A stretch of 64,000 bases of DNA, taken from positions 310,001 through 374,000 of the forward strand of contig NW_026570267.1 of the NCBI RefSeq assembly GCF_019649055.1. The letters are read 5' to 3'. Position numbers and translations under genes: made by a program. The notes beneath the pieces were generated by a model. The model was given only the letters and a program-made list of their open reading frames with translations. It ran no database searches and was not told the origin of the DNA. This document shows positions 1 through 57,527 of this stretch, piece after piece. The DNA comes from Paramacrobiotus metropolitanus. Lineage: Eukaryota; Tardigrada; Eutardigrada; Parachela; Macrobiotidae. The stretch's first letter is position 1; every line of letters begins with the position of its first letter.

Positions 1-2058
1 TATCCCGTATTGACTTCCTGTTCACCAGTTTCTCTTTGCCAAACTGTACACGGCTGACTTTCGGATACGGGAGCTTGTCGCGTGGAGGATACGGTGAGAG
101 GCTGGATAAATCAGCCTTGGGTGCAGTTTGTAGCGTCGGGCACTGGTTATCCTTCCAGATAGACACTGTCGCTTCGCTGTCCAAATGGTCCTGCAAATGC
201 AAATAACGGCCACTGTAAGTAGATTTATCATAGCCAAGCAAACCAAAAAACCATCGTTTGCCAAACTGTGCGATCATTCCTTACCAATAATCTCTGCACA
301 TAGAGTGGACCATCCGGGTTAGTGCGAGATAAAATTTCAAGTGCAGTCTGCACTTTTTTATCGCACCATACCAACTGATCTTCCGTAGGCTCAACCGGCC
401 TGAAAACAGACTTTTTGTTGCACACGATATTTTTCAATGCTCATTTCTCAATTAAAATTTTTTTACCCTTTTGGTCTTGATGGCAGGCAGATGTACTGTG
501 CCACAAACAGGAACCGACATAGCAGATTCCGCTTCACGCGATCCTGTTTCATATCGCTTTCCAAGGCATTCGGATCGGGATTGAATCTGATACTGTTCAG
601 GTTAACATCAACGCTGCCGGTGGCAGCATTTGTCCGCGATGCTCGAGTTAAAATTCTACTGCGTCCATCTTCCACTTCTCCCTCTTCCTGTTCTCCTTCT
701 TTAAGATCGGTTGGCGTCATCATCTCAAGAACAGTTTCCATTCCCTGACGAAAAATTCCGGAAAATAATTATTAATCAGCGAGCGCTATAATCCTGTTTT
801 TCATGTTAATAATCACTTGTTTGAACGTAGCGAATCCTTTATCAGTTAAGACCAGGTTGGGATTTTTCAGGCAATCCAATAAATTGCAAAGCTGAGCAAA
901 TTTCGCATTGGCGTGGGGGTTATTCGCCGTTCCCGTTGTCAGGCCCTCGGTAGTTACGCATTTTCCGGTATTGAATTCCCCGGCAATGTTAGCAGCTCCT
1001 TTATCCGACATTGGAATCCGTGCGCTAACATAACACAGTAAACGTCCCCGAGCCTTGCCGGACGTGGTTTTGGGAAGGCGAGACAACAATTCTGAAGAAA
1101 CCATGACTATTACGCTGGTGATAATAATTATAAAAATAATCGAAGCTCACGTAAACTAAACTTCGATAATCATGATAAAGATATTAGATACCCACTTTTA
1201 TGGTTTACAATTAACTTGATCATTATAAGTTCGCTGATCAGTTGAGTACAACCGTAGAAAAAAGCTTCTAAAAAATGTCAAAAATTTTTCAAAACCCTGG
1301 AAACTTTTTGTATTGCAAGATAAAAAAGGCTGTCACTAAAATTAATAAAACAGTGCGATCAAATTCAAGAGCAGAGAAGAAAATTTGAAAAAAACCTCAC
1401 TAATTAATTCAACAACTAAACGTTTAGCTTACCCACGGCAAAGCGCAGTAACATATTTTTGCAGGATGAGCTGACGAATTTCGGAGATCGCCATTTATTT
1501 TTCAGATCGACAAATAAATTCGCAATCTGTTCCTTCTCCCGGCTATCACCCCAATCGCAGGCTTCCTGAAACAGCATGAAGGGAACCGCTGGATCCAGGA
1601 TGTCCGCATCCACAAAATCGACAGTACAGCGCATCAACCATTCCATGTCCAAGAAATTGCGCGTCTGATTCTGTCGGAGAACACCATATGTTTTCAGATA
1701 CGAAACCTATCCCTTCCACCATGGGCCGCTGCACGCAAATTGCCACTCACTAATTCATCCCAAAAGCATCCACGGATGGCCGTTTCCAGATAGGTTTTAT
1801 GAGTTTCTCGTATACTACCCGAAATCGCGGAAAATTCCGTAATAAATTGTGCAATGCCATTTTCTAGCGTGGAGATCTTATCGGAGGAGAGTGGGCTAGA
1901 CAGATTTTGTGGCTTGCAGAGGAGGACGATGCGCGTCTAAAACACTTTCCGGTTAACCAGGGCTGCTGCATGAAAACAAGAAGAGGGAATTTTGATTGCT
2001 TTACCATGTAGTGCGAGACGCCAGCGAGACCATACAGTTCCTGTGGGGCAGAATTCAT
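1..2058 (-). CDS. THOC1: THO complex subunit 1, copy A (5' part, cut by window edge)
   Basis: THOC1 (Hpr1) is a core subunit of the nuclear THO/TREX complex, which couples transcription to mRNA packaging and export. The start ATG is at 2058. The protein opens MNSAPQELYGLAGVSHYM, followed by a 68-nt intron, an exon, a 44-nt intron and further exons. Recognisable blocks are LLSRLPKTTSGKARGRL (human LLRRLSKSQNTVFCGRI) and the NPDPNALESDMKQDRVKRN region before a hydrophobic helix. The donor CAA|GTGATT near 808 is intact and opens a 72-nt intron. Against copy B this copy lacks 9 nt near 523, so the helix reads RNLLCRFLF instead of RNLLSVLCRFLF. The 3' exons would lie before base 1. The reading frame is open across what is visible, so this is the better candidate for the working gene. 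The family call rests on remembered human THOC1. Confidence 0.8.
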
Positions 2059-2535
2059 GGCTAAACATTAGCTAGGAAGTTGCAATGCAAAATCTTAAAT
2101 GTATGACGATCAAAAGCAGAAACACAGATCCTGAAGGCGAGCAAACAAACTTGGAATCTGGGATCAATCCATAAAATTTAATGATAAAAATCATAAAATT
2201 ATACAGTTACTAAACTATGAAGTCACACTTCGCGGTGATCTTTGATGCAGTGACCATGCATTTTGCACCAAAATGAAACTTAACTACACGGGAACAAAAG
2301 TAAGTAACAATTTTAACATCCACGTAAAATCCGGATATGACTGCCGAGTGCCGGCGGGATGTAACAACAAATTCTGAAAATTCTGCCATCAAGAAACGGG
2401 AGATCAAAGACTGCAAGCAGTCGAATAGACACTTTCTGGAACTTAGCGCCGCCGCCATTGGGCGGTGAACATATCAGGCAAGTTTTGGTTTGTCGTTTTC
2501 CGGTTTCATCAGCATCTTTGGAATTCGTGATTCTC
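1..2535. repeat. Segmental duplication, left copy (THOC1 5' region)
   Basis: This stretch matches about 7526-10055 in the same orientation, at an offset of 7513 bases over the first coding exons. The match covers THOC1 exons, introns and upstream region and ends within the upstream region, near TTTGGAATT at 2518-2526. By eye about 772-2100 is nearly identical to its partner, while about 1-480 and 2200-2530 carry many more differences. The left boundary is outside the window. Confidence 0.9.
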
Positions 2536-2829
2536 GCCGGGACTGCAGACTGGCAGTGTGTCATTTTGACGTCACTAACAAACAGAAATTTTACGGTGCG
2601 TCAACAGGAGAATTACGCATGCGCTCTGTTTCTGTTCGTGTGCTGTCATATGGACGGTGGTGTAATACCGTGGCCATAGCACTGCCGCTTAAATTAAGGA
2701 AACTGTAAATATTTTTATCACACATTTGTCGCCTCGTTTGCAAAGAATGATTTCCTGTAAATTTTCGTGTATCTACCCAATCAACAAAGAACATAATTTG
2801 CGAACGCGCGCTGTTTAAAAAGTGTCGGG

Positions 2830-5800
2830 ATGAGCACTTGTCGTTACGGGCCTACGATGACTTCCCGGCGTAGCTTAGGCATACGGCTCTCAACCGCCAC
2901 AGGGCGCCATCCGGGCAAGAATCGTCAATTATCACCTGATGGAAGAGTTCAGCTAAAGCCATCTATCCCGAAAGCATATGTCGTACTGTAAGTATAGAGT
3001 GTAAAATATGTATGCCCCTTACCTATGCCCCGACAGCTTTTTAACATTTGAAAATCGTTGTGCGAAGCAGGTGCAAGCAAACGTTACGTGCCGAAGTTGG
3101 CGCTAGCGCATGCCACCCACGGGTGCTGCGCCAGATTCAAAAAACTTGCTGTTCGCTTCACTGGCTTTACTGTAATATCGCTAATAGTTATGCCCCTCTA
3201 AAAAGTCTTCAGTCACATACAATCTGTTCAAAGGATAGCTCAAAAAATGCAGAAAAAACTTTTATTATGGAAAATAAAAAGTTTTGTAAGTAAAAAGTTT
3301 TCGGAAAAACGAGATTTCAACGATTTACACTTTTTGCGTTTAGCACAGTCTGCCATATACTTATATGATAAGTCAAATTTATTTAACTCGTCGATATCTC
3401 GTTTCTCCGAAAACTTTTTACTTGCAAACTTTTTATTTTTCATAATGAAAATTTTTTCTGCATTTTTTGAGTTATAGGTTGAACAGATTGAATGAAACTG
3501 AAGGGCTTTCAAAAAATACCGAACCTGCAGGGGTTGCCCAGTACGCAGGACATTTGGCACACACATTTTCCGCAGCCGAAAAGCTGTCGGGGCATATAGT
3601 AAGGGGCATATGTGTAAATACTCGTAGTGTGCTCTGACTGCTCTCCTATCACCCGCTTTCGTTTTTTGTCAAAACACTCAAAAGTTTCTCCGTTCTTGTT
3701 TTGATTTTATTTGTAAACCGGAGAAAGTGTAACTGTTTTTTCGATTGTATTCATTTATTTGCATTTGAATGTTTTTCTCTCTCTAGATTCTACATCACAT
3801 TGATCACCAATGAATCGCTCCATTCTGTTTTTGTGTCCGCAATTTCCATGGCTGTATCCATCCAAATCAGCGTTACCAGCGTATTCGCGGTGTGATCCAC
3901 ACTCATCTACTTATCTGTTCAGACTGCTATCCCGTGGTCTTTTCAAAAGCACATCTCTTCACAACCTGGCCTTGGTTTCGAAGGGACTTACTTCCCAGCT
4001 CCAGCTTGGAACTAGGAGTCGACCGATTCTGGAAAGGTGCTTATTTCCGACTATCGAAGGTAAATCTGTGGCAGCGCGTGGCGTGGCTAGTTTCCCAACG
4101 GAATTTCCTATCGGTTTCGCAGAGGTACAGTACCCGGTAATTGTGGCTACATTGTGGTATTTAGCAGCGAATTGTTTACAGGAAGTCCAGCAGTTCGCCT
4201 TCCATCTGGCTGAATTGTGTCAGTTGCAAGCAGGAGGAGACGAAGCGACTGCCGTGAGTTTCAAGGACAAAGACCTGCTGGAAAATGTCATCACTGGGTT
4301 GAAAAAAGGAAATTATGAAGGGATTAGGGTCGGAATGAGCCATCTAGAAGAGATGTTGGATGCTTTGACGATGGAACTGCGGCTGCACTTCGGGATAGCC
4401 TGTCTGGAAGGGCTGCAAAAGCAACGCTCGCGTCTTCAAGTCGTATGTTCAACATTAGCAGCACCTGGAGACATGTCTGACAAATCCAGGAAGGAATTAA
4501 ATGCCTTTCGCAGTCAAAATTTACGGGCGGCGCGGGATATTGGACAGTGTTTACTCCGAATTCTCCAGAACTGCATGCCAGAGCCTTGTTTGAAGGACTT
4601 TCACCACCTTACGCTTCCGTGGGCGCAAATTGGATTTCAGGCATTTTTGGCTGTTACTTTCGATAAGGTATGACAGAAACGGAGTTATGTGTTAGATTTA
4701 GCGCAGCACATTTTGTGTTATTGTAGTTGTTTGTGGTATGACAATCGTTTGCGTTATGTGACTTACGTCATGCTTACGTGTATATCTTAATTCGGTTATC
4801 TAGGACGCTGCCGCCTTACTAACTGCCCTGGATAAAGTGATAACCTCAGCTCGGATGCTCTTATCTGCGCTGGATGCGAGCTTTGCAAAAACAGGTCAGA
4901 ATTGCTTTTGTTTATACACCGTGACTAACAGTACTGGATGAGACCATACTGGGTCGCACAATATCATTAGTTAAAGATTTGTTGTTTTGCAGAAGCGTCC
5001 TCGCTGTTGGTACAAGCGCTACACGAAGTTATAGTATTGACGGAATCAGAGGTTTTCGACACCGATGTTACTTTTTCGGTTGGAGAGTGCGATGCCTACA
5101 CTGATGCCGATTTTTCCGCTCTGTTCGACTATCATCCTCCCTGCCGAACGTTTGTGCATTGTAACTGGATATATGCTATTGCATTAACAAGTACCCCGCA
5201 TTCAAGAGCAGCTTTCGGATTATTGGGCGAACTTATGCGGAAATTGTATGTACAAGGAGAAGTGTTTGAACAAGAGGGCGAAAGACTGGAGGAAATTGTG
5301 GATCGTTTTGGTTGCGGTAGATATTACCACAAAAAGAGCCGAATTAAAGTTGGTCCGGTTTGAAGATCGAAATAAGCCGAAACCTCCGGTGATTGTCGTC
5401 GAAGCCTCCTTTAGTAATGAAGATTTAATTGAACTCTTTATTGAGGGCTGTGACTGGTTAGGACCAACAACAGGCGCCATATATTGCTTTCTTGTGGATA
5501 TACATTACGAAGGACTGAAGAAACCGAAACCCTTTTCTGCAACATTCTACGCTTTTAAGCGTAAAGAATTCCCTCGATCGAAAACTCCGCACAGGAATCC
5601 TGGTTGTAGAATGGCCAAAGATGGCATCGCAGATGGGAAAGGAAGTATAAAATACCACGTCATAAATGACATTCCGTACACAAATGACCATGCGAAAACA
5701 ATGTCGTTGGCCGACATCGAGCGAATATTCGATGTAGAGGTGGTATTAATTCGGCATGTGGATGAGAGGAATTATATATGGAACCGTTTAGCGTCACACT

Positions 5801-5916
5801 TGAGTACAAGGATAAGGACGGAAACAGGAAGCGGTTTGTGGTTGCGATAGAAAATTTTTTCGATTGGGTTAAGTCCGGATGGGACCAGCATTTTGCAGAT
5901 GCCGGAAAGAAATGAG
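2830..5916 (+). CDS. Multi-exon gene of unknown function
   Basis: I do not recognise this protein. A possible first exon runs 2830-2987 (starts MSTCRYGPTMTSRRSLGIRL) and ends at a good donor, GTAAGT; 3787-3890 could follow in phase. The best supported exon runs from about 4182 (after TTTACAG) to 4667, with helical sequence such as LLENVITGLKKGNYEGIRVG. Exons at about 4804-4890 and 4994-5316 continue it. A 49-nt GT-AG intron at 5317-5365 explains an apparent frame change: exon 4994-5316 ends in phase 1 and joins in frame to DRNKPKPPVIVVEASFSNED. The end is unclear. The frame stays open to 5850, or a 29-35 nt intron near 5735 would join MEPFSVTLEYKDKDGNRK, ending at 5916. There is no signal peptide, membrane segment or known motif. 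It could also be two genes, and the exon set before 4182 is weak. Confidence 0.45.
3011..3608. mobile_element. Fold-back / MITE-like element, about 600 bp
   Basis: The ends are inverted repeats: TATGCCCCTTACCTATGCCC at 3011 pairs with the sequence ending GGGGCATA at 3608. A second, longer pair of arms lies inside: about 3200-3330 matches the reverse complement of about 3375-3500, including the run GCAAGTAAAAAGTTTTCGG. The whole element can therefore fold into a long hairpin. It has no coding capacity; reading frames here appear as mirror images on both strands because of the palindrome. It sits in the presumed first intron of the unknown gene. I could not define a convincing target-site duplication. 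Confidence 0.8.
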
Positions 5917-6685
5917 GGCAAGTTATCGTGGTTGATTAGATCTGGTCTGTAACCGTCTGTTCATAACGTTCCGGCATGTTCTAGCGCTTTAATGGCTTCC
6001 TTTGGTGCTGGTTATTCAAGGCATTTTGATTTTTTATTTAGTCCTCTTTGTATTGCAAATGCCGCTCTCGAAGTTTGTGTTAATACAATAAAACAAGATA
6101 TCTCGTGCTCGTTTTGATCTTTCGGCCCATTTTAGATACGATTGCACATCTTCAAGATTGTGCGTGCAGCTCCTTAGGAACTTGCATGTGCAGGTATTCG
6201 CGTTTCTTCTAGCAAAAAACGTGAGAAATAAATCTTTCAGTGTTGCAACGAAATCCGCGTGTACCGCAATTAGTAAAAATCGTAAGCATCTCAGTAAAGA
6301 AGGTACGAAGTAACTATAAGAACTTTCGCCTGCAAGGTGAATCTATTCGAAAAATTGCCGTTCGAGCAAGTTACAGTTTTTAACCATGCCACAAAAATAA
6401 AGTATAAAAGAAATTAGGCACTTCCGGTAATTTTTTGCCTACATCTCAACATTCCGCTTCTCACATAATCTTATCCTCACATGCCATTCAACAGTGAAGG
6501 AAGAAAAGCGAAAACAAACCAGAAATTACCGACAACTAGGCATTACGCCGCATCTCCAAGTATGAAGTTAGAATCATTTAGCACTTCTAAAAGAATAATA
6601 CGCATAGAACATAAAAACTTATTAAAAGCGTCACTATAAAACGATGGCATATTCCTGCAGCATCAGCGCAGCCTGCTGCACGGGA
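5917..6685. other. Intergenic, between convergent genes
   Basis: No gene is visible. The plus-strand motif CAATAAAACAA at about 6087 could serve the upstream gene as a polyadenylation signal. An alternative C-terminal reading of THOC1 copy B (DPVQQAALMLQEYAIVL) extends down to about 6643 in another frame. Confidence 0.5.
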
Positions 6686-9571
6686 TCATATACTGGTTGA
6701 CTTCCAGTAGGAGAATGAATCCGAATCAAACTGCAGTATCCCAGCGGTTCGCTCCCAGTCAGCTACGATCAATTTCGCTATGCCCAGTGTACTTTCTTTA
6801 TTCATCATCTGATGACCAGCTGGTTCGGGTTCTTCCTCCGCCGGTAAATCCTCATCGGGATCAGGATTAATTAGATCGTCCAGGTTATCCGTTGCCATGT
6901 CCACATTGCCATTTTTCTCAGCATTATTCGGCGACAATTCAACGGGTGAGGTGGCAGTGGCTGCCATGTCTGCTTTATACTCTGCAGATCGGGATTCTTC
7001 TCGGCTAACTGCATGACATAATTCTCCAGGAATGTTCCCATATCTTTGGTCGGCATTTTCTCCACGGCCGCTTCATTCAGGAAGTGAATGTGCGTTCGCT
7101 TACCCAAAATTCGTAAAGCGCGCCACTGGAATTTTTCATCATTAACAATCCTGTTGAAAAGTTCAACCTTTACTGTTGAGAGTTTACTCTAGACATCGCA
7201 ATATCCGTAAGTATCTCAACTTGATTGTCCGCGCAAAACTATCACAAAAGTACTTTTGTAGTACAGTTTATGCAGTTCTTCTTACTTTGGTGTCTCTTTT
7301 CGTTATCGCCTATTCCACAACCGGAGCAAAATAACTCAAGTCTGGCGGCTGATATCCCAAATTCTGGAATTCTTCCGTAGTATTTGGACCTTTGTTCAAC
7401 AATCGCGTGACTTCCACACTAATAATATAAAGCAGATTCAGAAAATGAACTTTAAAAGATGCGTATAGTACGGTGAGTACAAATAAACTTACCTGCCAGT
7501 CACTTTACCCGGACCGGCCAAAGGCATATCCCGTATTGACTTCCTGTTCACCAGTTTCTCTTTTCCAAACTGTACACGGCTGACTTTCGGATACGGCAGT
7601 TCGTCGCGTGGAGGAAACGGTGAGAGGCTGGATAAATCAGCCTTAGGTGCAGTTTGCAACGGCGGGCACTGGTTATCCTTCCAGATGGACAGTATCGCTT
7701 CGCTGTCCAAATGGTCCTGCAAATGCAAATAACGGCCACTGTAAGTAGATTTATCATAGCCAAGCAAACCAAAAAACCATCATTTGCCAAACTGTGTGAT
7801 CATTGCTTACCAATAATCTCTGCACATAGAGTGGACCATCCGGATTTGTGCGAGATAAAATTTCAAGTGCAGTCTGCACTTTTTTATCGCACCATACCAA
7901 TTGTTCTTCCGTTGGCTCAAACGGTCTAAAAACAGACTTTTTGTCGCACACCACTTATTTTAATGCCCATTTCTCAATTAAAATTCTGTTACCCTTTTGG
8001 TCTTGATGGCAGGCAGATGTACTGTGCCACAAACAGGAACCGGCACAGCACTGACAGCAGATTCCGCTTCACGCGGTCCTGTTTCATATCGCTTTCCAAG
8101 GCATTCGGATCGGGATTGAATCTAATACTGTTCAGGTTAACTTCAACGCTGCCGCTGGCAGCATTTGTCCGCGATGCTCGAGTTAAAATTCTACTGCGTC
8201 CATCTTCCACTTCTCCCTCTTCCTGTTCTCCTTCTTTAAGATCGGTTGGCGTCATCATCTCAAGAACAGTTTCCATTCCCTGACGAAAAATTCCGGAAAA
8301 TAATTATTAATCAGCGAGCGCTATAATCCTGTTTGAACGTAGCGAATCCTTTATCGGTTAAGACCAGGTTGGGATTTTTCAGGCAATCCAATAAATTGCA
8401 AAGCTGAGCAAATTTCGCAGTGGCGTGGGGGTTATTCGCCGTTCCCGTTGTCAGGCCCTCGGTAGTTACGCATTTTCCGGTATTGAATTCCCCGGCAATG
8501 TTAGCAGCTCCTTTATCCGACATTGGAATCCGTGCGCTAACATAACACAGTAAACGTCCCCGAGCCTTGCCGGACGTGGTTTTGGGAAGGCGAGACAACA
8601 ATTCTGAAGAAACCATGACTATTACGCTGGTGATAATAATTATAAAAATAATCGAAGCTCACGTAAACTAAACTTCGATAATCATGATAAAGATATTAGA
8701 TACCCACTTTTATGGTTTACAATTAACTTGATCATTATAAGTTCGCTGATCAGTTGAGTACAACCGTAGAAAAAAGCTTCTAAAAAATGTCAAAAATTTT
8801 TCAAAACCCTGGAAACTTTTTGTATTGCAAGATAAAAAAGGCTGTCACTAAAATTAATAAAACAGTGCGATCAAATTCAAGAGCAGAGAAGAAAATTTGA
8901 AAAAAAACCTCACTAATTAACTCAACAACTAAACGTTTAGCTTACCCACGGCAAAGCGCAGTAACATATTTTTGCAGGATGAGCTGACGAATTTCGGAGA
9001 TCGCCATTTATTTTTCAGATCGACAAATAAATTCGCAATCTGTTCCTTCTCCCGGCTATCACCCCAATCGCAGGCTTCCTGAAACAGCATGAAGGGAACC
9101 GCTGGATCCAGGATGTCCGCATCCACAAAATCGACAGTACAGCGCATCAACCATTCCATGTCCAAGAAATTGCGCGTCTGATTCTGTCGGAGAACACCAT
9201 ATGTTTTCAGATACGAAACCTATCCCTTCCACCATGGGCCGCTGCACGCAAATTGCCACTCACTAATTCATCCCAAAAGCATCCACGGATGGCCGTTTCC
9301 AGATAGGTTTTATGAGTTTCTCGTATACTACCCGAAATCGCGGAAAATTCCGTAATAAATTGTGCAATGCCATTTTCTAGCGTGGAGATCTTATCGGAGG
9401 AGAGTGGGCTAGACAGATTTTGTGGCTTGCAGAGGAGGACGATGCGCGTCTAAAACACTTTCCGGTTAACCAGGGCTGCTGCATGAAAACAAGAAGAGGG
9501 AATTTTGATTGCTTTACCATGTAGTGCGAGACGCCAGCGAGACCATACAGTTCCTGTGGGGCAGAATTCAT
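6686..9571 (-). CDS. THOC1: THO complex subunit 1, copy B (probably damaged)
   Basis: This is the second THOC1 copy, with the 3' exons visible. Exons are 9518-9571, 9264-9449, 8946-9219, about 8334-8603, 7989-8280 and then smaller ones to 6686. Late blocks match human THOC1: SIWKDNQCPPL (human NSWKNEGCPSF), MPLAGPGKVTG (LGKGPTKKI), GKRTHIHFL..PTKDMGTFLENYVMQLAEKNP and an acidic linker before DWERTAGIL. Two lesions are visible. First, a 23-nt deletion near 8331 removes the donor that copy A keeps, so the exon reads on into FKQDYSAR and a stop. Second, near 6970-7000 the frame must shift from ..NPDLQSI to the acidic linker without a normal-sized intron to do it. The C-terminal death domain of vertebrate THOC1 is not recognised. 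It may be a pseudogene, or use a cryptic splice site. Confidence 0.8.
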
Positions 9572-10055
9572 GGCTAAACATTAGCTAGGAAGTTGCAATG
9601 CAAAATCTTAAATGTATGACGATCAAAAGCAGAAACACAGATCCTGAAGGCGAGCAAACAAACTTGGAATCTGGGATCAATCCATAAAATTTAATGATAA
9701 AAATCATAAAAATAATGATACAGTTACAGAGTTACTAACTATGAAGTATGCACTTCGCAGTGATCAATGATGCAGTGACCATGCATTTTACTCTAAAATG
9801 AAACTAAACTACACGGGAACAAAAGTAACAATTTTTTAACATCCACGTAAAATCCGGATGCGACTACTGGCGGGATCTAACAACAAATTCTGAAAATTCT
9901 GGAGAATTTCTGTCATCAAGAAACGGGAGATGGGAATTGCAAGCGGCGAATACACTTTTCTGGAACCAGCGCCGCCACCACTGGGCGGTGAACATATCAG
10001 ACGAGTTTTGGTTTGTCGTTTTCCGGTTTCATCAGCATCTTTGGAATTTCGTGAT
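7526..10055. repeat. Segmental duplication, right copy (THOC1 5' region)
   Basis: This is the partner of 1-2535. It extends from the exon ending in the sequence CGGAATTCATTTATC-like flank through THOC1 exon 1 to its upstream region, ending near the SMIM12 transcription start. Differences from the left copy: a 23-nt deletion near 8331, 9 extra nt near 8052 (present here, absent in copy A), one extra A near 8905, and scattered substitutions concentrated at the two ends. Confidence 0.9.
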
Positions 10056-10273
10056 TTTTCGTTTTCTTCGCATTGTTTTCAGTTTTTGGGATTTTATCCT
10101 TTATTGTCCTGTTGAATTGTGATTAGTGAACTTTTCTGACTTTTAGAAATTGTGTTGATTTGTGCCCGTTGTTTTGGGTTCCGTCGATTTGTGTGAAAAT
10201 CACGGGACTCCAGTCCATTATTACGACTACTCGTTTCACAAAATCACAATCATATCGGTTGCCAATTGCCGTC
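9572..10273. promoter_or_regulatory. Divergent upstream region, THOC1 copy B / SMIM12
   Basis: About 700 bases separate the THOC1 start (minus) from the SMIM12 start (plus). The part up to about 10055 is duplicated upstream of copy A, where SMIM12 is absent, so the duplication ended inside this shared region. No TATA box or other clear motif was identified. Confidence 0.45.
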
Positions 10274-10543
10274 ATGATTCAGATCCTGGGTGTTGCTGCT
10301 CGTCAGTATATTCCGTATGCGGTGTTCCCGATTGCCCTTGTTGTTGGCGCAATTGGATGGAATGTAGAGCATCGATGGTTCAAAGGAAGGAATATCACAG
10401 CCCGGCAGTCTATTGGAGAGGAACGCCAAGAACGATTCCTGGACGAAGCGACGACAAAACGTGATCCCGTTTCCTTAGCGGATACGAAGAAACAGCTCTT
10501 TAATCATGTCTTGGAGACTAATGTTAAGCTGCATTCAAGATGA
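10274..10543 (+). CDS. SMIM12: Small integral membrane protein 12
   Basis: This is an 89-residue single-exon frame starting MIQILGVAARQYIPYAVFPI. One hydrophobic segment (about residues 8-27, YIPYAVFPIALVVGAIGW) is followed by a charged tail with GEERQERFLDEATTK. Human SMIM12 has the same plan: [20 protein letters not shown], then SISERREDRKLDELLGK, at a similar length of about 92 residues. SMIM12 is a conserved single-pass membrane protein without an assigned biochemical role. The ATG at 10274 was chosen because the homology begins there; the upstream frame (from 10160) reads through probable 5' leader. A minus-strand gene, THOC1, lies head-to-head with it. An AATAAA at about 10687 may end the transcript. 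Confidence 0.85.
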   Translation: MIQILGVAARQYIPYAVFPIALVVGAIGWNVEHRWFKGRNITARQSIGEERQERFLDEATTKRDPVSLADTKKQLFNHVLETNVKLHSR

Positions 10544-15403: not shown

Positions 15404-18400
15404 ATGGCAGCACGCAGAATGCGCCGATTTCGTTCGGCTTATCCCACTGTTGACCAGATAAATTCTGATGTTATTACAAAGCTGGCGGTGGATTATTGGG
15501 CACCGGGCGATGAATCCGTTACCCACAAACCCTTCGATCTTGATGTGGTAGTTGGCATCTATCGAGAGCTGGACGCCGTTAGGTGTGCTACAAAATGCAT
15601 TCTGCAGGTTTTGGTTTTTCGTATAATTCACGCTACCACGATTTTGGTCTTTTATCGGAGAATGGGTGTTTTACAGGCGAGCACATTCTTATTTTTTGGT
15701 TGTAGGTTTTCCAGTCGGCGCCTGATGCTCTTAGACTTCAGTCAATATTTGGAGAGATTTTTGTGGCCAAATTTTTCTCCACGGACATCAAGATGCTGGC
15801 AACTTGTCATGAGTATTGTTGCACTCATTAACGAAAAAAAGCGCGAGCGAGCACCTGTATGGCATGTAAGTGTTACTCGCTACAGTGGCTACACGTTTTA
15901 CTTTGCATCATAGTATTTTCCAGAATGTCACTTGTCACTTGTGACACCGTTTGCAGCGGAAATTTTAATGGTTTTTTGTTTGTTTTCATTATTTTAATCA
16001 TCTCAGTATGTCCAAGAGTTTTCTGTTGTTTCGATAACTTTTCTGGTATTTTAGGCGTTCACGGCATATCCAGCGCATTTTCCGGAATTTTTTAAACAAG
16101 TTCTGGTCCTTACCTCCGAAAGCAACCAAGAAGATCAGCAGAAGCCGGCGTTATCCCTGACTGAAAAGTGCCAACTGTTGATTTTCCTGTCACATTGTGT
16201 TAACAGTTTGGTAAGAATATGTAAAGCAGTAAAAGTTGTATCGTGAATTTTGCCTTTGAAAATGCGTTAAACTCACTTAGTTACTAAAATGTAAAGTTAG
16301 TGGAATGCAGACAACAGTATTTTAGATTGTTTCGTTGGTATATTGAACAGTACGTTGTGTGCACAGGAAGAGGACATCGTGCGAGAACAAGTTCAAAAAA
16401 TCTTCGGCTTACCGATTTGGTTTTCCTTTCTGCCAAACGTCTGGAAATCGAATTGAAAAAAGCTCCTAATCTGAAAAAGGCTTGGGATCGCCTAGTAAAG
16501 AAGGATCTTATTAAAGACGATGCCGCCAAATCTCTGGATGATTTGTACAGGAATTTCATGCGGAATCTTATGCAGCAGTTTTTGACGATTTTAAACGCAA
16601 TACAACCCGAAGGTATTTGCATTTTGCAGACCACAGTGCCTAACACACGTTTATGTGGTATTTTGCAGTAGATTTTGCTTGTGAAAATTTTGTACAACTT
16701 TTTGAAAATTTTTTTTTGGAACACGGCTGTGTTGGAAGCTAATTTTACACTACGTTGTTTTAGGGGATTTGGAGCCGGGATGCCTGGGTTATTGCGAGCA
16801 CTTCTTGAACTTGATGATCGATTGTCAGTCATCGCTGAATACCCGGCGATTTTTTCACGCTCTAATGGATGATGCTCATATTCTCGTTAAATGCAAACTG
16901 TCCGGTTTGTATCGTCGATCCGAAGGAAGGGTGTTTTCGCAGCTAATTGATGCTCTGGAATTTTATTCAAGCTATGAAATCACTCTCAGCGGAAATGATG
17001 TGTCGGAGCAAGAACGTAATACCGAACACTACAACCGTGTCTCCGCCTTACAGCGGACAGTGTTCAAATTGTTCACCGATAACGACGGTGGTCGCAAGTT
17101 TGCGACGGCTCCTATCTATAAAGTCGATACGCGGGAAGCGCTAAAGGCATTTCTGGATCCCCTTGGGTATGGGCTTAGATGAGAACCATTGACTCAGTTT
17201 TTAAAATCCTTTGTCTTTGCCAGCTTCGAGGATCTTAAACGACTGGGTGATTACGTTGGGGTTTTGGGTACGGATTCACTGGATCCGTCTGACAAGAACA
17301 CAGACGCCTTGAGGAAGCACATTCTGACGGAAGTCCTTATCGCATACCATGAGCGTCGCGTTTCACAACTGCAGCGGGTTAATGCAATGCCGATTTATCC
17401 TACAGAAGATATTATCTGGGATGAAGCGCTCGTCCCGGATGAATTCACGTTAACATCAAGTATGTCGTAATATTTTTTGTTTTGTTCGTTCATCAGAATC
17501 GAATTGGCTTGTTAGCCATGCTGTAATTTGGTTTTACAGACACGATGCCGCTTCCTAAACTACACTTACAATTCCTTTCCTTGCACGATTATTTACTGCG
17601 GAACTTCCAGCTGTTTCGTCTGGAGTCAGCCTATGAAATACGCACAGATATCGAAGACGCGATAGCGCGTATGAAGCCTTGGTAAGTCGTAACGCTACGA
17701 ATTTTGAAATTATTGTGAAGAAACTATATTTACGAGTAAGGACTGAAGATACTCAATCCAGAATTTTTTTTCTGGCAGGACAAATGAAGTCGGGGGTGTC
17801 GTTTTTGGTGGATGGGCGCGCATGGCTCTGCCCATCAACCGGTTTGAGGTCTTTGACGTTGGCAAGCCTAATGTTGGATGCAAGCAGCCCTCACGAGTTC
17901 GGGCCACGATCACCGTGACGCTTAATGTCCGGCATGCAATCAAAGATGAATGGCAAGGTATGTGGCGGGGTTTTTCAACTTTTATTGAAGAAAGTCAGTG
18001 AAAAAGTAGTATCGAAGTTCAATAAATCTGGATGAACATCGTTCTTAGGCTTGAGAAAGCATGACATTTGCTTCCTTTTGACTGTCAAACCACCTAACAA
18101 AAATGTTGGATCTCCTGCCGATGGAACGGCTTCCTTTTTGGACTACAGCGGCTTAATGTACGTGAGAGGATGTGAAATCGAGGGGATGCTCGATGATAAA
18201 GGAAACCTGATTGATGAAAGTACGGCTGGATTAACGTTTGTATTGTCGTGTATGTGTTGTTAGTATTGGTTTCGCTTTTCAGTGTCCGAACATAAACCTG
18301 TCTTTCATGGAGAAACCAGACAGTTCCGCGTATGGCTGGATGCTAACCAGTATTATTTGGATTCCCAGAGTGCTTCTGGCACGGTTCGTACTTTAATATT

Positions 18401-21400
18401 TCTTGGCTGCACAGCAGTTCATTGTGTTGTTGTTTCCATGCAAATGCCAATTGCTGTACTGATGTATCTGTATTGCAGGATATATATCGCGGTTTTAATA
18501 TTATTATGCGGCGCAAACCGGAAGAGAACAATTTCAAAGCGGTACTGGAAACGATTCGAACGTTGATTAATTCCGAATGGGTGGTGCCCGATTGGCTGCA
18601 CGACATCCTGCTTGGTTATGGGGATCCCGCATCAGCCCATTGGACTAAACTATCCAACAAAGACGTGACGCTGGATTTCAACGATACCTTCCTTAGCTTG
18701 GAACATGTGAAGGCATGTTTTCTGGATGAAGTCGTGGAATTTAGTGATCCCAGAGGCTTGCCAATGCAACCACCGTTTAGGTGCGGCATAATATGTTTAC
18801 TTGGAAGCTTGTCTATGTATTTTGTATTCAAACAATTCATGAAACAAAGTCATGTTATCGTGCTGCCTCAAGAGTAACTATTGCTTCATGACTTTAATGG
18901 TTTAAAATATGGAAGTGCACGTCAGTTTCTCATTTGCTTGATGTGAATAACTGTTAACAGTATGCGTATGTATTATCTTCAGGATAACATTTGCTATGCC
19001 GGAAACCTCTGAGAACGGCACGAAACGCGATGTGGATGGGGAAATTATTACTTTGCCGAAACGATTGACCGTGGAACCCTACGTGAAGAAATCCACTTCT
19101 CCATATCCTCGAATTGAACCGAAAAGGTACAGATCATCTCACTGTTAACCCAATTGTGGAATAGAGTAACAGAAGAAATTTATAGGAATGCCATACCTTT
19201 CACCCCGGCTCAGACCCAAGCCATCATTTCCGGCATGCAGCACGGTCTGACATTGATTGTCGGTCCACCCGGAACCGGTAAAACCGACGTGGCTGTGCAG
19301 ATAATTTCCAATATTTATCACAATTTTCCGGAGCAGCGAACGCTGATTGTGACGCATTCCAACCAAGCACTGAATCAGCTCTTTGAGAAAATTATGGATT
19401 TGGATATTGATGAGCGCCATCTGTTACGTCTGGGTCACGGTGAGGAAGCCCTGGAGACCAAGAAAGACTTCAGTCGGTATGGACGAGTGAACTATGTCCT
19501 TGCGAAGCGACTAGAGTTGCTCAGTGAAGTCGGTCGGCTGCAAACAAGTTTAGGAGTCCCCGGGGATGTTGCGTATACCTGTGAAACAGCAGGACATTTT
19601 TATTTATACCAGGTACAGTACTGTTTTAAAAAAGGCTGCATAATTTTATTTATGTCTTTTTCTGTTCGCTAAGGTTTTGTTTGGTAGTACTATTGCTTTA
19701 TTTTCTATGGTTTTTATTTTGTTGTTCAGGTGCTTCCCAGATGGCAGATCTATAAAAATAAAATCAAAAGCGCCGGAAGCGAAGCATCCGCCATGTCCGT
19801 GGTGTCGGATTCGTTTCCGTTTTCGAATTTCTTCGGCGATGCTCCGCAGCCTTTATTCAAAAATGACACGTTTGACGATGACATGGAAACGGCTGAAGTG
19901 TGTTTCCGTTACGTTGAGAATATCTTTACTCAGCTGGAAGAATTTCGGCCGTTTGAACTGCTTCGCAGTGGATTGGATCGGACTCGGTATCTGCTGACCA
20001 AAGAGGCCAAGATCATTGCCATGACTTGTACACATGCTGGGATGAAGCGACAGGAACTGGTGGATCTCGGATTTAAAGTAAAGGCATCGTTTGTTCAGAT
20101 TTTTGCAGCCTTGACATGTGGCAAAACCAATTCATTGGTAAACATTCCTTCTTTCAGTATGACAACATTCTTATGGAAGAAGCTGCACAAATCTTGGAAG
20201 TGGAGACCTTTATTCCACTACTGCTGCAAAAGCCAGAACATGGATATAACCGGTTGAAAAGATGGATTATGATCGGGGATCACAATCAGCTACCACCCAT
20301 TGTGCAGAATAAGGTGTTTGAGAAATTCTGCAACATGGAACAGTCACTGTTCACCCGATTCGTACGCCTTGGCGTTCCTACGGTAGATCTGGATGCGCAA
20401 GGCCGTATGAGACCAAGGTATCGCTACTGCTTTTGCTATTGACTATTGTTATATCTCAGTAAATTCTTTTGAAAGTATCGTGTGCTTCTTATTCGTGGGC
20501 ACTTCATTGTTTTACAAAATTGTAATACAGTAAGTTCTTTTTGGTTTTTTATAGTTTATGTCGCCTGTTCAGCTGGCGGTATAAGCGCCTCGGAAACCTT
20601 CCGCACACATTGCGAATGCCGGCTTTTCTCACCGCTAATACCGGCTTCGCGTTTGATTACCAGCTGATCAATGTGGAAGATTACAATGGTGTGGGAGAAT
20701 CCGAACCAAGCGCCCATTTCATACAGGTATGCGAACGAATCGTTGGTGGATAAATGAATGGAATTGGCATCTCATACAATTTCTTGTAGAATCTGGCAGA
20801 AGCGGAATACGTCGTGGCCACTTTTATGTACATGCGCCTCTTGGGATATCCTGCGTCCTCAATAACAATTCTGGCGGCTTACAACGGACAGAAACATCTT
20901 ATCCGGGATGTAATTGAAAAACGATGCGGTACTAATCCATTGGTGGGCTGGCCACATAAAATCGCTACAGTTGATAAGTATCAAGGTCAACAGAATGATT
21001 ATGTCCTCCTGTCCCTGGTACGCACAAAGACAGTCGGTTATCTGAGGTATGTGGAAGCAAAGATGTATTCATTGTCTGAAATGTGAGCGTTTGTTGTTTT
21101 AAATAGCTGCTATCCATTGCAGGGATGTACGACGTGTTGTTGTCGCGCTATCCCGTGCTCGATTGGGGTTGTATGTTTTTGCCCGGATTCCGCTGTTCCG
21201 AAACTGTTTTGAGCTGAGTCCAGCAATGGCTGTACTTATGGAACGACCGTCACAATTGCATCTGTTCCCTACTGAACGCTTTCCAGTGGAAAGAAAGGTT
21301 CGTCAGCAAATTTTATTCTTTTGATTAGGAATGTTCTTTGTTCAAGGAACCAACGAATTTCATCCATGTGCAGCAGTTCATTTTTATTAATGGGTGGTAT

Positions 21401-21829
21401 GTTTTAAACTTTAGGATTCTTATTTCTTGTTTGCAGATGCTGGCTGATCCAACCGATAGTCCGGCCGTAATTATCAAAACCATGCCGGAAATGCTGAAAT
21501 TTGTGTATGATTTATACGCGGAAAAGGTGCAATCGTTGCGACCAGTTTACGAAGTGAGATATCGATGTGTTGTTGAGTTTGTTTTAGAAATTCATAATCG
21601 CTTTTCGTAGGCACAGATGGCTGCGCAGGCCGACAGTAGCGATTCCGAACCGGAAGAGGAGACGGCGCCCACCACAGAGGAGCCACAACAGCCGGCGGAA
21701 GAAACTGCCGTCAAAGCCGGTCCGACCAAAATCAACTTCCTCCCTGTGGAAGACATGCCTTTCTTCCCGATCCGTGGCGACAAAGGTGTGACGGTTGAGG
21801 AGGAAGACGACGGCGACAAGGATGACTAA
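15404..21829 (+). CDS. AQR: RNA helicase aquarius (intron-binding protein IBP160)
   Basis: Aquarius is an SF1-type helicase that binds introns upstream of the branch site in the spliceosome. The start is ATG 15404 ([20 protein letters not shown]). Roughly 15-17 exons read almost continuously against human AQR. Landmarks include [10 protein letters not shown]-type ARM-domain blocks near 16.87 kb, [10 protein letters not shown] near 17.43 kb, [15 protein letters not shown] at about 18160 and [20 protein letters not shown] at about 18500. The Walker A motif is [13 protein letters not shown] at about 19263, with [13 protein letters not shown], motif II region [10 protein letters not shown] at about 20162, GDHNQLPP at about 20277, [16 protein letters not shown] at about 20980 and [12 protein letters not shown] at about 21150. 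The acidic tail ends [10 protein letters not shown]. One frame break occurs near 16418-16430 (see findings). All other joints are in phase, so the gene is probably functional. Confidence 0.95.
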
Positions 21830-33946: not shown

Positions 33947-35383
33947 CTACGTCTTCCGGTGTCTCAGGCCTTCGTTTGCATCTGCTGGCCAGTCAACAAA
34001 CACTTCGTCCCCGCCGTCTTCCATTTCGGATGTCTCCAGCGGATCAACGGTCTCATCAAAACCGAAGTCTTCCGTACTTTGAGACGCTGGTAACTCCTTC
34101 ATATTTTGGCGTGCAAAACGATTGGACAGCGATAATCCCGCCAGAATCAATCCGCAAAAGAAATTAATGCCGACGATAATCGCCCCGATAATCACCGGAT
34201 GCCGATGCATCCAGTACCGCAATCCCTCCAGCCGGGCTTCCACGTGTAACTCCATACTGTAGATATTCACCGTGGATTTGCGCACTTCAATGACAGCGTC
34301 CATTACCGGCGCATAGGGATCTTCTTGGTATAGGTCAATCAGATCTACGCGCAAATGCTGCCGTTCTTGAAGGAATCCCATCAAATACAACGGCGAGAGC
34401 ACAATGATGCGTACTAAATGGTGGATGTAGGAGCGATACTGCAGAAGAGCAGGACGAGATGCGGATTTTAACAGATTTTCATCGTACGAACGTAGCGCGA
34501 TGTTGATCATAAAAATTCCGGCTTGAGCATTTTCCTGTAAAACATTCCTTAATTAAACACAGTAAACCATGTACCAAATCCACGCAGCAATTTCAATGTT
34601 TGGTGTTAAAAGTATGATACTGCACATTTTCACATGCACGGTTCAAGTGCGAACAACACACAAACGGAGGCGAACACGGAAAACTGCTTTCTTTTTAAAC
34701 ATAATATTTGAAGACATCTGAAAAAATTTATTGTTGTCTGTGCATACTGACAAAATGATACAGTGAATGTACTTTAATATAAAAAAAATCTGGTTAAACA
34801 TGTGTGGTGACTGGTCTTTGAAGGAATACCAACATAATTAAAGTAAATTAACGATTAGATCGTTCAAATGCGGTACAGACAACAAAAGCAAGCAACACCA
34901 AGCAGCAAGCCGTATTTTTTGTTAGTGGCAAAACATGCAGTGCACATGCAACCCCGTTAATGAGCTTACTTGTGCTACCTCGGATTCCGGTAGATCAACC
35001 GACACCCACATAGCATACTTCTGTCCGGACATGAGCAGCGGACTCTCCTTGCCCATGCGTTTCCGTTGGATAAACGGTACGACGGCGGTGGGATATTTGC
35101 AATACTCGGACTGCGCTCGACTGCAGTCTGCATACGACAAATGCACGGGCAAGACATGGAGGATGGTGGGTAATGTTAGGTAATGGAAAATGAAGAAGAT
35201 GAAGAGCGCCAGTCCAAATATGAACAACACCAGCGTAATGCTGAACAGTATCCGGAAGAGAAGTTTGAGAACCGTCTTCACGGCGTCGGACTGTGCTTTC
35301 TGCAGACGCAGCTGCAAGGAGACGATGTAGTTATAGGTTCTGAGATGCGGGTATGGACTGCGCTTGTCAACTTTGGCTTTCAT
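33947..35383 (-). CDS. BSCL2: Seipin, ER lipid-droplet assembly protein
   Basis: Seipin is an ER membrane protein that organises nascent lipid droplets. Two exons, 34970-35383 and 33947-34534, join in phase 0 to give 333 residues. A first membrane segment (FRILFSITLVLFIFGLALFI) is followed by a lumenal domain with LPTILHVLPVHLSY, LLMSGQKYAMWVSVDLPES across the splice to AQAGIFMINIAL, and DLIDLYQEDPYAP. A second membrane segment (HPVIIGAIIVGINFFCGLIL) follows GLRYWMHRHP. Human seipin shows the same features ([64 protein letters not shown]). The C-terminal tail is acidic and short. The ATG at 35383 gives a cytosolic N-terminus of normal length. It lies head-to-head with DCAF10, 740 bp away. Confidence 0.92.
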
Positions 35384-36123
35384 TGTGACGGAACTTCCGA
35401 TACTGATAAACGGAACACGTCACTGCTCAGGGAAGCCAGAGCCTGACAATCTTGAAAGACAGCAAGCAGTACAAAGTTTTTAATTAATTAGCAGCTCATC
35501 ATGCAATGCTGCACGCAAATCGAGCTGAGGACGAGGATACTTCTAAGCCATGACGATTGACGAAGATAAGCTTTTGCAGTTCTGCAGCAACCATGAGACA
35601 TTTATCTTGAACAAAAACTGGATATTAGGAAGAGCGTTGTCAAAGCAGAGGCAAGAACGCTCGTAATAATTAACTTTCTGAAACTTTCAGAGTGAAGTTT
35701 TTCTAATTTTCACAACTTTCTGATACATTTAGGGGCCCTACACTTACAGCAGCGGTTTTCTTTTCAGATGCATGCGATCAGATGATTCAGTCGCTGTTGC
35801 AGCCACCTGCGTCCGTTTACTTGCTTGAGAATCTACTCTACTCTAGGGTTTTCTTCAACTTCCTTGTGGTTCAGATTTTGGCTGTTTGTTTATGTTATTT
35901 ATTTTATGGAAATATAAAAATAGAAAACGTTTGCACTATCGCATTCGTAAACCAAAATTTGGGGTTTTTTGCCTTTATGATTTCTTATTACGTTCTGGTG
36001 GACTGTTTGCTCGTTTGTAGTGGTATCGACTGGTGCCAGTAAAACCGTTTACTGATTGAATATTCACGATCATTGCAGACCACGGGTGAATAACTCACGA
36101 TCCGCGTTTTGTTGACTGGAGCC
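35384..36123. promoter_or_regulatory. Divergent upstream region, seipin / DCAF10
   Basis: 740 bases separate the two start codons. It contains AT-rich and ordinary sequence without a clear core promoter motif. A bidirectional promoter is inferred from gene orientation only. Confidence 0.35.
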
Positions 36124-49964: not shown

Positions 49965-52683
49965 GTGAAAAATAGTTACGAAGACGTGGAATTATGTGTA
50001 AAGACGAACGCATGCTTCGTGGGTGAGCGAATGTGCGCCAGTAAGATGGAATGCATCCCGCAGAAAGAATGGTGCGACGGGAAACACGACTGCAGAGACA
50101 GGTCCGACGAGGAGAACGATGAGTGTCGCTTGACAACGCCCCTTCCGCCTTGCCACGGAAATGAATTTCGCTGTGGTAATGGGCGTTGTATACCAGGAGC
50201 ATGGGTGTGCGACGGGACCAAGGACTGCGACGATGGTACGGCTGAAACCCTGGCGGACTGGTGTGTCAACAAGAAAATCGACAAAACTGGAGGTGGCTAT
50301 ATGGCCGGTACGTAGACCTTCGATCAATTTTTTTCTGATGTAAATCTTATTATATTATAGATTTTATTATCGTACTTTATAAATTGTTTAAACTAATTTT
50401 TTAAATCGTTTGCTAAGACACAAGTTGGTTAACATAATTTGTAATAAAGATGCATGGTTCATGATTTGTAATACAGATTCTTGCTTGTAATGCAGAGCCT
50501 GGGACGGCAGAAATCTCTACAACTGCTAGCTCAGCGCAGTGTCCGAATACCGATTTCGCTTGCAGCAATGGAGAGTGCATCCCCAGGTCGTGGCGGTGTG
50601 ATCAGGGCGTTGATTGCGCTGATGGCAGTGATGAACACAACTGTCCGGGTGCGTGGACGCTGCCTCCCGCAGCTCTCCATGCCGTGTCGGCGTTGACATG
50701 CGCTCACGACCAGTTCCATTGTGATGCCCCAAACGGGACCGCAATGTGCCTGCCGTTGGGTAAGGTTTGCGATCATCGTAATGACTGTAAAAACGGAACG
50801 GACGAGGGCTTTGGTTGCAAGCTGGCGGAAAAGGAGTGCGAGAAGAACAACGGACAATAAGTGTAACCTTACTCCGCCGGGTCGGAAATGTTCTTGTCCT
50901 CACGGGTATGTATAATGTAAATTGTGAATTATTGGTATATACAGACTACAGTATAACCATCCTGAAATCGATATGCTTTGGTCTGAACAATAAGGTTTTT
51001 AAAATACGAGTAGTTTATTTTTGCTACTGGACTCTGCAAAATCATTCTGTGTGTTTGAAACGAGAATGTCAAGTTCCTGGTGATTATAACGGGACACAGG
51101 GACGTGTTACTGTTTATATTCTTACAATGAAATTGAAATTCTATGATTTTGAAGTACCATTGCTGCTGAATTATGTTGCAGATTCTTTTTGTAGGTACGT
51201 TCTGTCTCCCAACGGAAGGGCTTGCGCTGATGTCGATGAATGTGCAACAAGCTCACAACTTGGAGGCCCTTGCAGTCAACTGTGCATCAATCTGAAAGGC
51301 ACATACAAATGTCACTGCGCTCCCGGTTTCCTCCTGGAATTTGATGGTCACACGTGCAAATCGGCTAATCACGTTCCGTTGCTCATGTATTCCACTGACG
51401 GGGAGATTCGGTACATGGAAACGGAAGGTTTTCGGCATAATGATCTCTTTACAGAAGGGAAACTGACCACGATGACTGTAGGACTTGATTGGAAGCAGAA
51501 TAATAGCTTTGAATCCAGCACGGTAGGAAAATATTTTAGTATAGATGCAAGTCATTGCTCTTTGCAGATACAAGTCTTTCGAGATGCTTAATATTTGAGA
51601 TTTTTCTATTTTCCAGATTTTCTACAGCGATGCTGACCGAAAACATACAATCCGCTACGAATCTACTCACGAACGGAGCGTTATTCTCAAGAATATGGTC
51701 ATGCCGGAAAGCATCGCATTCGACTGGGTCAGCGAAAATCTGTATTACGTGGATGCCGGGAAGCCGGAAACTGGAGTGTGTTCTGTCAGCAGGAAAGCAG
51801 TGCATTGTGCTCCCGTGATCGACGCTGAAATTAATAATCCTCACGGACTGGCGGTTCATCCAGGAAAACGTCTGCTGTCCTTCGCTCAGTGGGGATCACG
51901 GCCGAAGATCGAGCGCCCATGGCTGGATGGCAGTGCAAGTAAGTAACAATGTCCAGGGAATCGAAACAATTACGTGAGTTATCTAAAAACAGCTAAAAAG
52001 TTGGGAACAGAGATTGGCCCTTGAATAGGTATATACAAACTATATATAGTTTGTCGGTTTTTTTTGCGGGAAGTTGAAAATAACATAGTGCTTGTAATGT
52101 TGGTTGATAACTATCGCGCAACTAGAAAGCCGAATTCAGGCTCCAGTGCTGTTTTCTTGATAAATTGCTAACAAAGCATATATTTTATTGTTTAGGGGTT
52201 GTTGTCATTTCCCAGAAGGTGTTATGGCCGAACGCTCTGGTAATCGATTATATCTGGGATCGCTTATATTTTATTGATGCCCAGTTGGACTGGATTGAAT
52301 GTGTATCATACAGCGGGGACGACCGGCGCACGGTTTTCCGCATGGCATTCTCGCATCCTTTCGGCTTAACAATGATCGGCAATCGTCTCTACTGGACAGA
52401 GTGGACGCACCGGGGCATTTACAGTGTATTGACCAACGGGAGCGATTTCCAGCTAGTGCACGACATGTCGATGCGTCCGTTGGGAATAGTGGCTGTGCAT
52501 CCATCGCGGCAGCCCTATTTCGATTCTCCTTGCGAACCCGCTGTTAGTCTCTGCGACCAAATATGCCTGGCTCGTGTAGCGCAGTATTACAATTGCGTCT
52601 GTCAGAGTGGATATCAGCTGGTGAACGATACAAAGTGTGTGCTCTTGGTCCCTTGGATGATCATATTCAGCGGGAAGCTTTGA
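49965..52683 (+). CDS. LDL-receptor-related protein (LDLa-EGF-propeller), truncated
   Basis: This is a secreted or surface lipoprotein-receptor-like protein. Four LDLa modules are visible: [60 protein letters not shown] with [10 protein letters not shown]; and [23 protein letters not shown] modules follow, one calcium-binding type ([19 protein letters not shown]). Then comes a six-bladed YWTD propeller: [80 protein letters not shown] and [13 protein letters not shown] closing EGF ([20 protein letters not shown]) ends at a stop at 52683. No second cluster, transmembrane segment or NPxY tail follows, so it is far shorter than LRP1/LRP2, and either truncated or soluble. Blade three has FAQWG where FWTDWG is usual. 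Some exon joints, around 50.9-51.2 kb, are uncertain. Confidence 0.8.
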
Positions 52684-54399: not shown

Positions 54400-56120
54400 C
54401 CAACCTCGGCCTCCGGCCTCGGTCGGGAAAATATAGGATTGAATTTTGAATAACGTTTCAATATTATAATTATTATGGAATTACTGATCTGCAAATATTA
54501 AGTATTGTATTATGGATGGAAAAACTACTACGATTACTGCAGTGCGAAAAATGTCTGAGCGGTTTTTTGTAATCAACTACTTCGCATCGCGTGTAGCAGA
54601 AAAACTTAACATCAGTGATCTCTTGTCACGAAAAAATTTTATTTTACTTTTGTGACGCTGGCTCTTAACTGTGGCTGCAAGTAAATGCCGCATTTACTCA
54701 ATCCATGTTTTACGTCCATATGCCAAACTGTCTGATATTATTAAAATTAATTTGGAACGGAAGTGTCTGCAATTTGCTTAATGGATCCCGCCAATTCAAA
54801 GCAAAAGAAAGTTTCATTGCCTAAAAGAAATAGCAGAAGTTGGTTTATATCATAGGAGATAGAACTGATAAAGATCCCTTCCCCTCTGTCCGACGGGCGA
54901 AAACCACAGCCCTTCGGTCTAACCGGCGAAATGTCTGACAGGCGGAATTCTCTGTTCGGAACTGTTCCCAGTTAGACAGTGGGCGGCGGAACTGTTCCCA
55001 GTTAGACAGTGGGCGAAAATCCTTACAATTCTGTCTAACCGGCGAAAATTCATACCTCTTTGTCTGACCAACGAAAATCAATAACCTTTTTTCTAGCCGG
55101 GGAAAATACCTCCTTCTTTGCCTGACCGGCGAAAATCCTTTCCTTTTTTTCCCGGCGAAGATCTTGTTCTTTTTTTAGCTGTCGAAAATCCCTTGTTTTT
55201 TTTCTAGCTGTCGAAAACCCATAACACTCATTCTGACAGGTAAAATTCTTACAGGCGAACGTTCCTTCCCTACGGTTTGTCTTTGTATATATATATTTGT
55301 ATATATATATACCTCGGCCTTCGGCCTCGGTTGGAAAAAAGTATAACTGAATTCTTATTATCGTTTTAATATTATAATAATTAATAATTATTACGGAATC
55401 ACTGATTTACAAATTTTATTGTTACACTATAAACTACTGCTACGAACCACCGTAAGTCGAAAATGATAACAATCGTTCGGAATGAAATGACGGAAATTTA
55501 TTTGATGGATTCCGTCGGTTTAAAGTGGTTTATATGTACTACTGAACCAGCGAAAATCCAATTTTCTCTGTCTAAGAGTCGAAAATCGCTCTTCCTCTGT
55601 TCGACGTTTTTGTCTGACCAGCAAAATTCCTACCCCTTGGTTTAACCGGCAAAAATCTCTACACCGCTGTCTAACCAGCGAAAATCCCTAGCCTTCTGTC
55701 TAACCGACGAAATTCCTTTCCCAACTTTTAACTGGCAAAACCCTTTCCCTTTATCTGGCCGGCGAAAATCCCTCCCATTTTTGCCTAACCGGCAAAAATC
55801 TCTAACTTTCTGTCCAACCGGTGAAAATCTTTTCCCCACTTGCGAACCGCCAAAAATCCCTGCCCATGTCTAACCGGCGAAAATCTTTTAGATTCTGTAT
55901 AACCTGCAAAATTCCCTTCCCCTCTGTCTGGCTGGCGAAAATCCTTCCCCTTTGTCTGGCCGGCAAAAATTCCTACCCTTTGTCTAACCGGCAAAAATCC
56001 TTAACTTTCTGTCCAACCGGTGAAAATCCTTTCCACACTTTCGAACCGCTAAAAATCCCTACCCGTGTCTAGCCGGCGAAAATCTCATACGTTCTGTCTA
56101 ACCGGCAAAGGTCCTAGCTT
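54400..56120. repeat. Degenerate tandem repeat family, irregular units of about 25-30 bp
   Basis: Units follow the pattern TCTGTCTAACCGGCGAAAAT plus a short variable spacer. They occur at 54880-55260 and again at 55560-56115. Each run is preceded by a palindromic motif, CCTCGGCCTCCGGCCTCGG (54405) and CCTCGGCCTTCGGCCTCGG (55311), and by a shared spacer containing ATTACTGATCTGCAAAT-like sequence. The block therefore looks like a larger element repeated in tandem, each copy with its own tandem-repeat core. Apparent reading frames are repeat translation only. Confidence 0.8.
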
Positions 56121-57266: not shown

Positions 57267-57527
57267 AATATTTAGTACTGATGAAAGAAATGTGGTAGTT
57301 TTATAAAGATAAAAAAAAGATTTTATAAGATTTAGGAAACGGAATTTAACTGATCGGAAAAGCGGTTTGTTTTGGATTATACACGTTCCGTTAATTATAA
57401 CGGAACGTGTATACATATACTTCTGTTTATGGAAGTGCCATCGCTAAAACCGTCGTCTACAAAGAAGGTTGAGCCAAATAACATATTAGCAAAAAATTTC
57501 TATCTATTAGCAAAAAATTTCTGTACT

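Follow-up and report, generated by a model that had tools for sequence, protein, structure and literature searches.

Loss of the intron 4 splice donor in one of two tandem THOC1 copies of Paramacrobiotus metropolitanus, a likely young pseudogene

The THOC1 gene occurs twice on the minus strand of the 64-kb stretch of DNA analysed here (42% GC, eukaryotic to judge by its GT–AG introns and the genes it contains; hereafter the window), and one of the two copies lacks a piece of sequence at an exon border. The question that arises is whether both genes still encode a protein or whether one has recently died and, if so, which of them. Copy A is cut by the left edge of the window, such that only its 5′ part can be compared with copy B (Table 1); over this part the two are 94.4% identical across 2568 columns by blastn and have the places of their introns in common. 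That the genes are indeed THOC1, as an earlier note on this DNA had claimed, is borne out by searches at the protein level. Exons 1–7 match the Pfam family efThoc1 with 85.3 bits for copy A (E 5e-24) and 79.6 bits for copy B (E 2.8e-22, with X at the lost codon), the curated cut-off being 27, while a composite query, in which the end of exon 4 is of the A type and exons 5 onward come from B, reaches E 3.3e-27. With this composite query the PDB matches at E ≤ 0.01 are solely chains of THO complex subunit 1, namely 7znk (E 3.5e-21) and 7apk (E 4.4e-21); the single copies match 7znk with E 7.4e-17 (A) and E 1.4e-15 (B). The THOC1 chains, and the aquarius chains used further below, are presumably human.

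Table 1. Features of the window discussed in the text. Positions are those of the window; slashes within sequences mark exon–intron borders or the deletion junction.
Feature	Position	Strand	Remark
THOC1 copy A and 5′ flank	1–2532	-	first seven exons, the seventh truncated by the window edge
Copy A exons 1–7	2058–2005, 1936–1751, 1670–1433, 1091–817, 744–467, 399–285, 190–1	-	no internal stop
Copy A intron 4	745–816	-	CAA/GTGATT...CGTCAG/GGA; 72 nt, GT...AG, phase 0
23 nt in A, absent from B, containing the GT donor	A 795–817	-	MAFFT/blastn; six equivalent placements
Near-identical tract in A, gene-conversion-like	621–2201	.	3 substitutions, 23-nt indel and 1-nt homopolymer indel
Substitutions per A segment	1–517; 518–620; 621–908; 909–2198; 2199–2525		33/517; 5/103; 2/265; 1/1290; 51/314
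THOC1 copy B and 5′ flank	about 6634–10056	-	exon model and Pfam match
Copy B exons 1–7	9571–9518, 9449–9264, 9183–8946, 8603–8330, 8279–7993, 7925–7811, 7716–7493	-	
Copy B last two exons	about 7418–7286 and 7188–6634	-	hand-built
Deletion junction in copy B, TTCAAACA/GGATTATAG	8325–8340	-	no GT donor; stop after DYSAR
In-frame TAG, copy B exon 8	7310–7312	-	hand-built exon; avoidable only through a poor donor upstream
First frame switch, copy B last exon	6980–7040 (approximate zone)	-	coding score moves between frames
Second frame switch, copy B last exon	6690–6740 (approximate zone)	-	weakly supported; scores about -0.4 to 2.6
UPF0767 family, SMIM12-like	10273–10542	+	family search
PRPF6-like	14771–11081	-	2823 nt open
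AQR (aquarius)	15404–21829	+	20 exons by hand; 1464 codons and stop, one frameshift
Seipin	33950–35419	-	family search
EGF / LDL-receptor class B domains	50791–52680	+	family search

The difference that bears most directly on this question lies at the end of exon 4. Copy A has there the donor that the earlier note had proposed, and the intron that follows it leads in phase 0 into GGA ATG GAA. Comparison with the family supports the presence of this intron, since the spliced model of copy A scores 85.3 Pfam bits versus 68 when the intron is read through (a query in which X stands for each of the two stops and codon 221 carries the residue of B), and since exons 4 and 5 joined score 39.1 bits versus 31.2 when the sequence is truncated at the lesion (+7.9). 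In copy B, 23 nt of A have no counterpart, the junction falling at 8329/8330 in the plus-strand alignment of the two copies. The GT has gone with them and the frame runs on as FKQDYSAR to a stop, giving a predicted product of 256 aa. Copy B has, in other words, the disabling lesion of a duplicated pseudogene, and to judge from its reading frame the normal protein is probably no longer produced from it. The six equivalent placements of the deletion correspond to a 5-nt flanking direct repeat, AAACA, and a flanking repeat of at least 5 nt accompanies only 0.18% of the distinct 23-nt deletions that can be enumerated along the window. The earlier claims of a deletion between two AAACA motifs, and of microhomology at its ends, are thereby upheld. 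Loss of 23 nt between 5-nt direct repeats, one of which is kept, is what would be expected of replication slippage or of microhomology-mediated end joining, and the sequence fits either mechanism alike.

Copy A, too, had been said to carry a lesion, in that it lacks 9 nt and was thought thereby to have a spacing less like that of the human protein, such that each copy would be damaged in its own way. A length difference of 9 nt does exist near A 518/519 (blastn), but the remainder of the argument is not supported. The DRVKRNLLCRFLFVAQYI of copy A aligns without a gap to SNFRRHILLQYLILFQYL of PDB THOC1 (7znk; phmmer, 64.4 bits in all), whereas the alignment of this part of copy B to the same chain begins only inside its extra SVL (60.2 bits in all). 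Moreover, adding SVL to A lowers the Pfam score from 13.3 to 10.6 (−2.7 bits), and removing it from B raises the score from 12.5 to 15.4 (+2.9 bits). With the SVL issue set aside, the residues of B are slightly the more family-like (15.4 versus 13.3 and 12.5 versus 10.6). At the nucleotide level TGCTGT occurs twice in B at this site, a pattern for which a simple deletion in A could account; set against the protein-level spacing, this makes either polarity of the change possible and, whichever applies, the change is in frame. No lesion is therefore visible in the part of copy A that lies within the window, its 3′ half beyond the edge being a region that may be broken, and copy B, with its lost GT and broken frame, emerges as the likelier dead copy, as had been suggested.

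The time at which copy B was broken can be approached from the divergence between the copies, which is distributed very unevenly. With gap columns dropped, there are 92 substitutions over 2489 aligned sites, and the maximum-likelihood low-divergence interval (log-likelihood gain 78) is a tract of ~1.58 kb that reaches from the edge of the 5′ flank into exon 5, part of which it includes; the B counterpart of A 621–2198 is 8156–9711. Within the tract there are 3 substitutions in about 1558 sites, or 0.19% (95% interval 0.04–0.56%), a level equal to about 1.5% of the divergence that silent sites show beyond its edges. The flanks diverge by about 5–16%, the higher value, on the right, being inflated by a gap-rich alignment in which two ungapped blocks are 89% and 91% identical. 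A permutation test gives the same picture: the longest identical run extends over 793 aligned columns as against a maximum of 389 in 20000 permutations, such that the identity exceeds chance inside diverged paralogues. The tract would most simply be explained by interlocus gene conversion. In this regard it resembles the gene conversion between neighbouring paralogues with which PMC3966225 and PMC3790853 are concerned, in that a sharp near-identical tract sits within older, diverged duplicates; it differs in being known from a single sequence, in which the transfer may have run in either direction. An origin of the tract by collapse of the assembly was judged less likely, since there is no substitution from 1409 to 2201, right up to the tract edge, whereas a collapse predicts that differences reappear within a read length of both edges. 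Since the tract encloses the 23-nt deletion, the latter is most simply later than the conversion-like event, and hence young.

The exons of the two copies also retain a record of selection. Between exons 5–7 of A and B, 16 changes are silent and 9 replace a residue (dS 0.133, dN 0.020, dN/dS 0.15), and exons 1–4 differ by one of each. If one copy had drifted freely from the outset beside a fully constrained sister, about 27 replacements should have accumulated, and nine or fewer would arise with P = 4e-5. There are thus too few replacements for one freely drifting copy, and selection maintained both copies through most of the time since they arose. The case against a late relaxed phase is less firm, as a mean dN/dS of 0.3 gives nine or fewer with P = 0.035. 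The lesion would be too young to have left a trace of relaxed selection in a ratio that covers the whole history of the pair.

It could be argued that a single gene is present here in two haplotypes, A and B, which the assembly misplaced in tandem, and that the deletion is an allelic variant. Near-identical stretches next to diverged ones may also occur between haplotypes, and the deletion appears to be young enough to be polymorphic, but the layout of the locus speaks against such a misplacement: the homology ends at 2532 in A and 10056 in B, and no part of 2533–7526 has a second copy within the window (self-blastn, E ≤ 1e-5 in both cases). This explanation is accordingly considered very improbable. 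The reading that we regard as likely is one in which THOC1 was duplicated within the locus, both copies then being held under purifying selection until divergence at silent sites had reached about 13%. The ~1.58-kb segment would later have been homogenised between them, after which B would have lost the 23 nt across the border of exon 4 and intron 4. On this reading copy B would be either a pseudogene of recent origin or a null allele that still segregates, with copy A as the likelier working gene.

The consequences for copy B depend on whether another donor can replace the one that was lost. Candidate donors were scored with a matrix built from 23 donors of the neighbouring AQR and PRPF6 genes, the introns of which (19 and 4, respectively) were placed by hand from anchor strings; it replaced a 29-donor matrix that had included six THOC1 donors, and the models of an automatic gene finder were dropped because AQR exons were swallowed in them. 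Scored leave-one-out, the 23 donors range from 0.87 to 10.89, with 20 at 3.96 or above. The intron 4 donor of copy A, at 4.34, lies within this range, yet is weak: with the earlier matrix 2 of the 29 training donors fell below it, and 10.6% of the 7385 GTs scored in the window were at least as good. Between the start of exon 4 and the acceptor, copy B has 11 scorable GTs, of which the best is TAT/GTTAGC at 8541 (2.57); another is CTG/GTCTTA at 8364 (0.76). Their use would delete 71 and 12 codons, respectively, and both would preserve the frame into exon 5. Copy B could in principle, therefore, still yield a THOC1 protein with an internal deletion from one of these or a similar cryptic donor, the more so as exons 5–7 were constrained through most of the history of the copies. 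Moreover, 3 of the 23 AQR and PRPF6 donors score below 2.57, as does the modelled intron 5 donor of B itself (AGG/GTAACA, 2.25), which makes cryptic splicing conceivable even if unlikely. Set against this are the low scores of both candidates when compared with the great majority of the reference donors, the loss of 71 codons of conserved exon 4 that the better of them would entail, and the possibility that copy B is interrupted downstream as well. On balance a rescue of the gene in this way is improbable. As the GT is missing and the other GTs in its vicinity are poor replacements, the transcript of copy B would be expected to retain the remnant of intron 4 and to stop after 256 residues. Since this stop lies upstream of several introns, nonsense-mediated decay of the transcript would be predicted.

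The possible downstream interruptions are a TAG in the hand-built exon 8 and two apparent changes of frame in the last exon, one near 7000 and a second, weakly supported, near 6720. The exon 8 donor downstream of the TAG, AAA/GTAAGA, scores 7.45, whereas the donors that would avoid the stop are poor, reaching 0.41 (7411) and −0.47 (7321) in phase and 3.36 (7389) out of phase. The tail of copy B gave no Pfam match, either with or without the second frame switch, and the switches therefore rest on coding scores and composition. All of these features may represent real decay or errors of single bases, the latter being possible because a frameshift of 1 nt is also present in AQR, elsewhere in the window. 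One base is missing at 16431, on both sides of which the protein aligns gap-free to aquarius; this is likely to be an assembly error and serves as a yardstick of indel quality.

The same reasoning could be extended to the lesion itself, such that the absence of the 23 nt, along with the 3′ frame switches, would be put down to the assembly or its consensus and copy B would be an intact second gene. The frameshift in the otherwise open AQR makes small indel errors plausible, and the past constraint on both copies also speaks for this reading. However, sequencing indel errors are mostly of 1–2 nt, whereas this loss amounts to 23 nt and is bounded by a 5-nt repeat; moreover, PRPF6, in the same window, is open over 2823 nt. 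Error is on these grounds an improbable source of the deletion, and loss of the splice site in a formerly functional copy B continues to be the favoured reading. A last variant would have copy B serve as a regulated short form: with intron 4 no longer removable, it would yield only a 256-aa N-terminal stub of THOC1 or an unproductive, decay-prone RNA, and this would tune how much THO complex is made from A or how that complex is assembled. To this suggestion very little probability can be given.

Loss of a splice site in a duplicate is a well-known route of gene loss and an ordinary fate, and general understanding is not altered by its occurrence in copy B. The features of copy B are likewise those of a non-processed (duplicated) pseudogene that has been silenced in this manner, in that its introns are kept, a recent lesion lies at an exon–intron border, a premature stop follows and the sister copy is intact in the part seen. 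It differs in that the lesion is apparently younger than the homogenised tract around it and in that its dead state is a prediction from sequence. Should the reading be confirmed, the locus would present a housekeeping duplicate near the moment of its loss, both copies having been long constrained and recently homogenised before damage to one splice site disabled one of them. There is a warning for annotation as well, as any model of copy B that skips the lesion would be wrong. Among the matches listed in a literature search, no title or opening of an abstract mentions a THOC1 duplicate damaged in this way; PMC2867973 contains the word THOC1 twice.

Scans of the 64-kb window for tRNA genes and Rfam families gave no match. 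Between the THOC1 copies lie two long open frames on the plus strand (3804–5847), for which a Pfam search at E ≤ 0.01 gave nothing; when the first of them was spliced by hand, the resulting model had only two matches, both under the curated cut-off. Also between the copies, at 3024–3596, are nested inverted repeats that resemble a MITE-type element, with inner arms of 78 nt (3207–3284 and 3426–3503, 87% complementary) and outer arms (3024–3066 and 3554–3596) that have TATGCCCCGACAGCTTTT in common. Towards the other end of the window, tandem arrays of two kinds occupy 55611–56109, 57514–58090 and 59127–59904. One kind has a 29-nt unit with a higher-order period of roughly 200 nt and forms two blocks; the other consists of repeats of the TTATGTTTTC type, beyond which lies a stretch with the orientation reversed.
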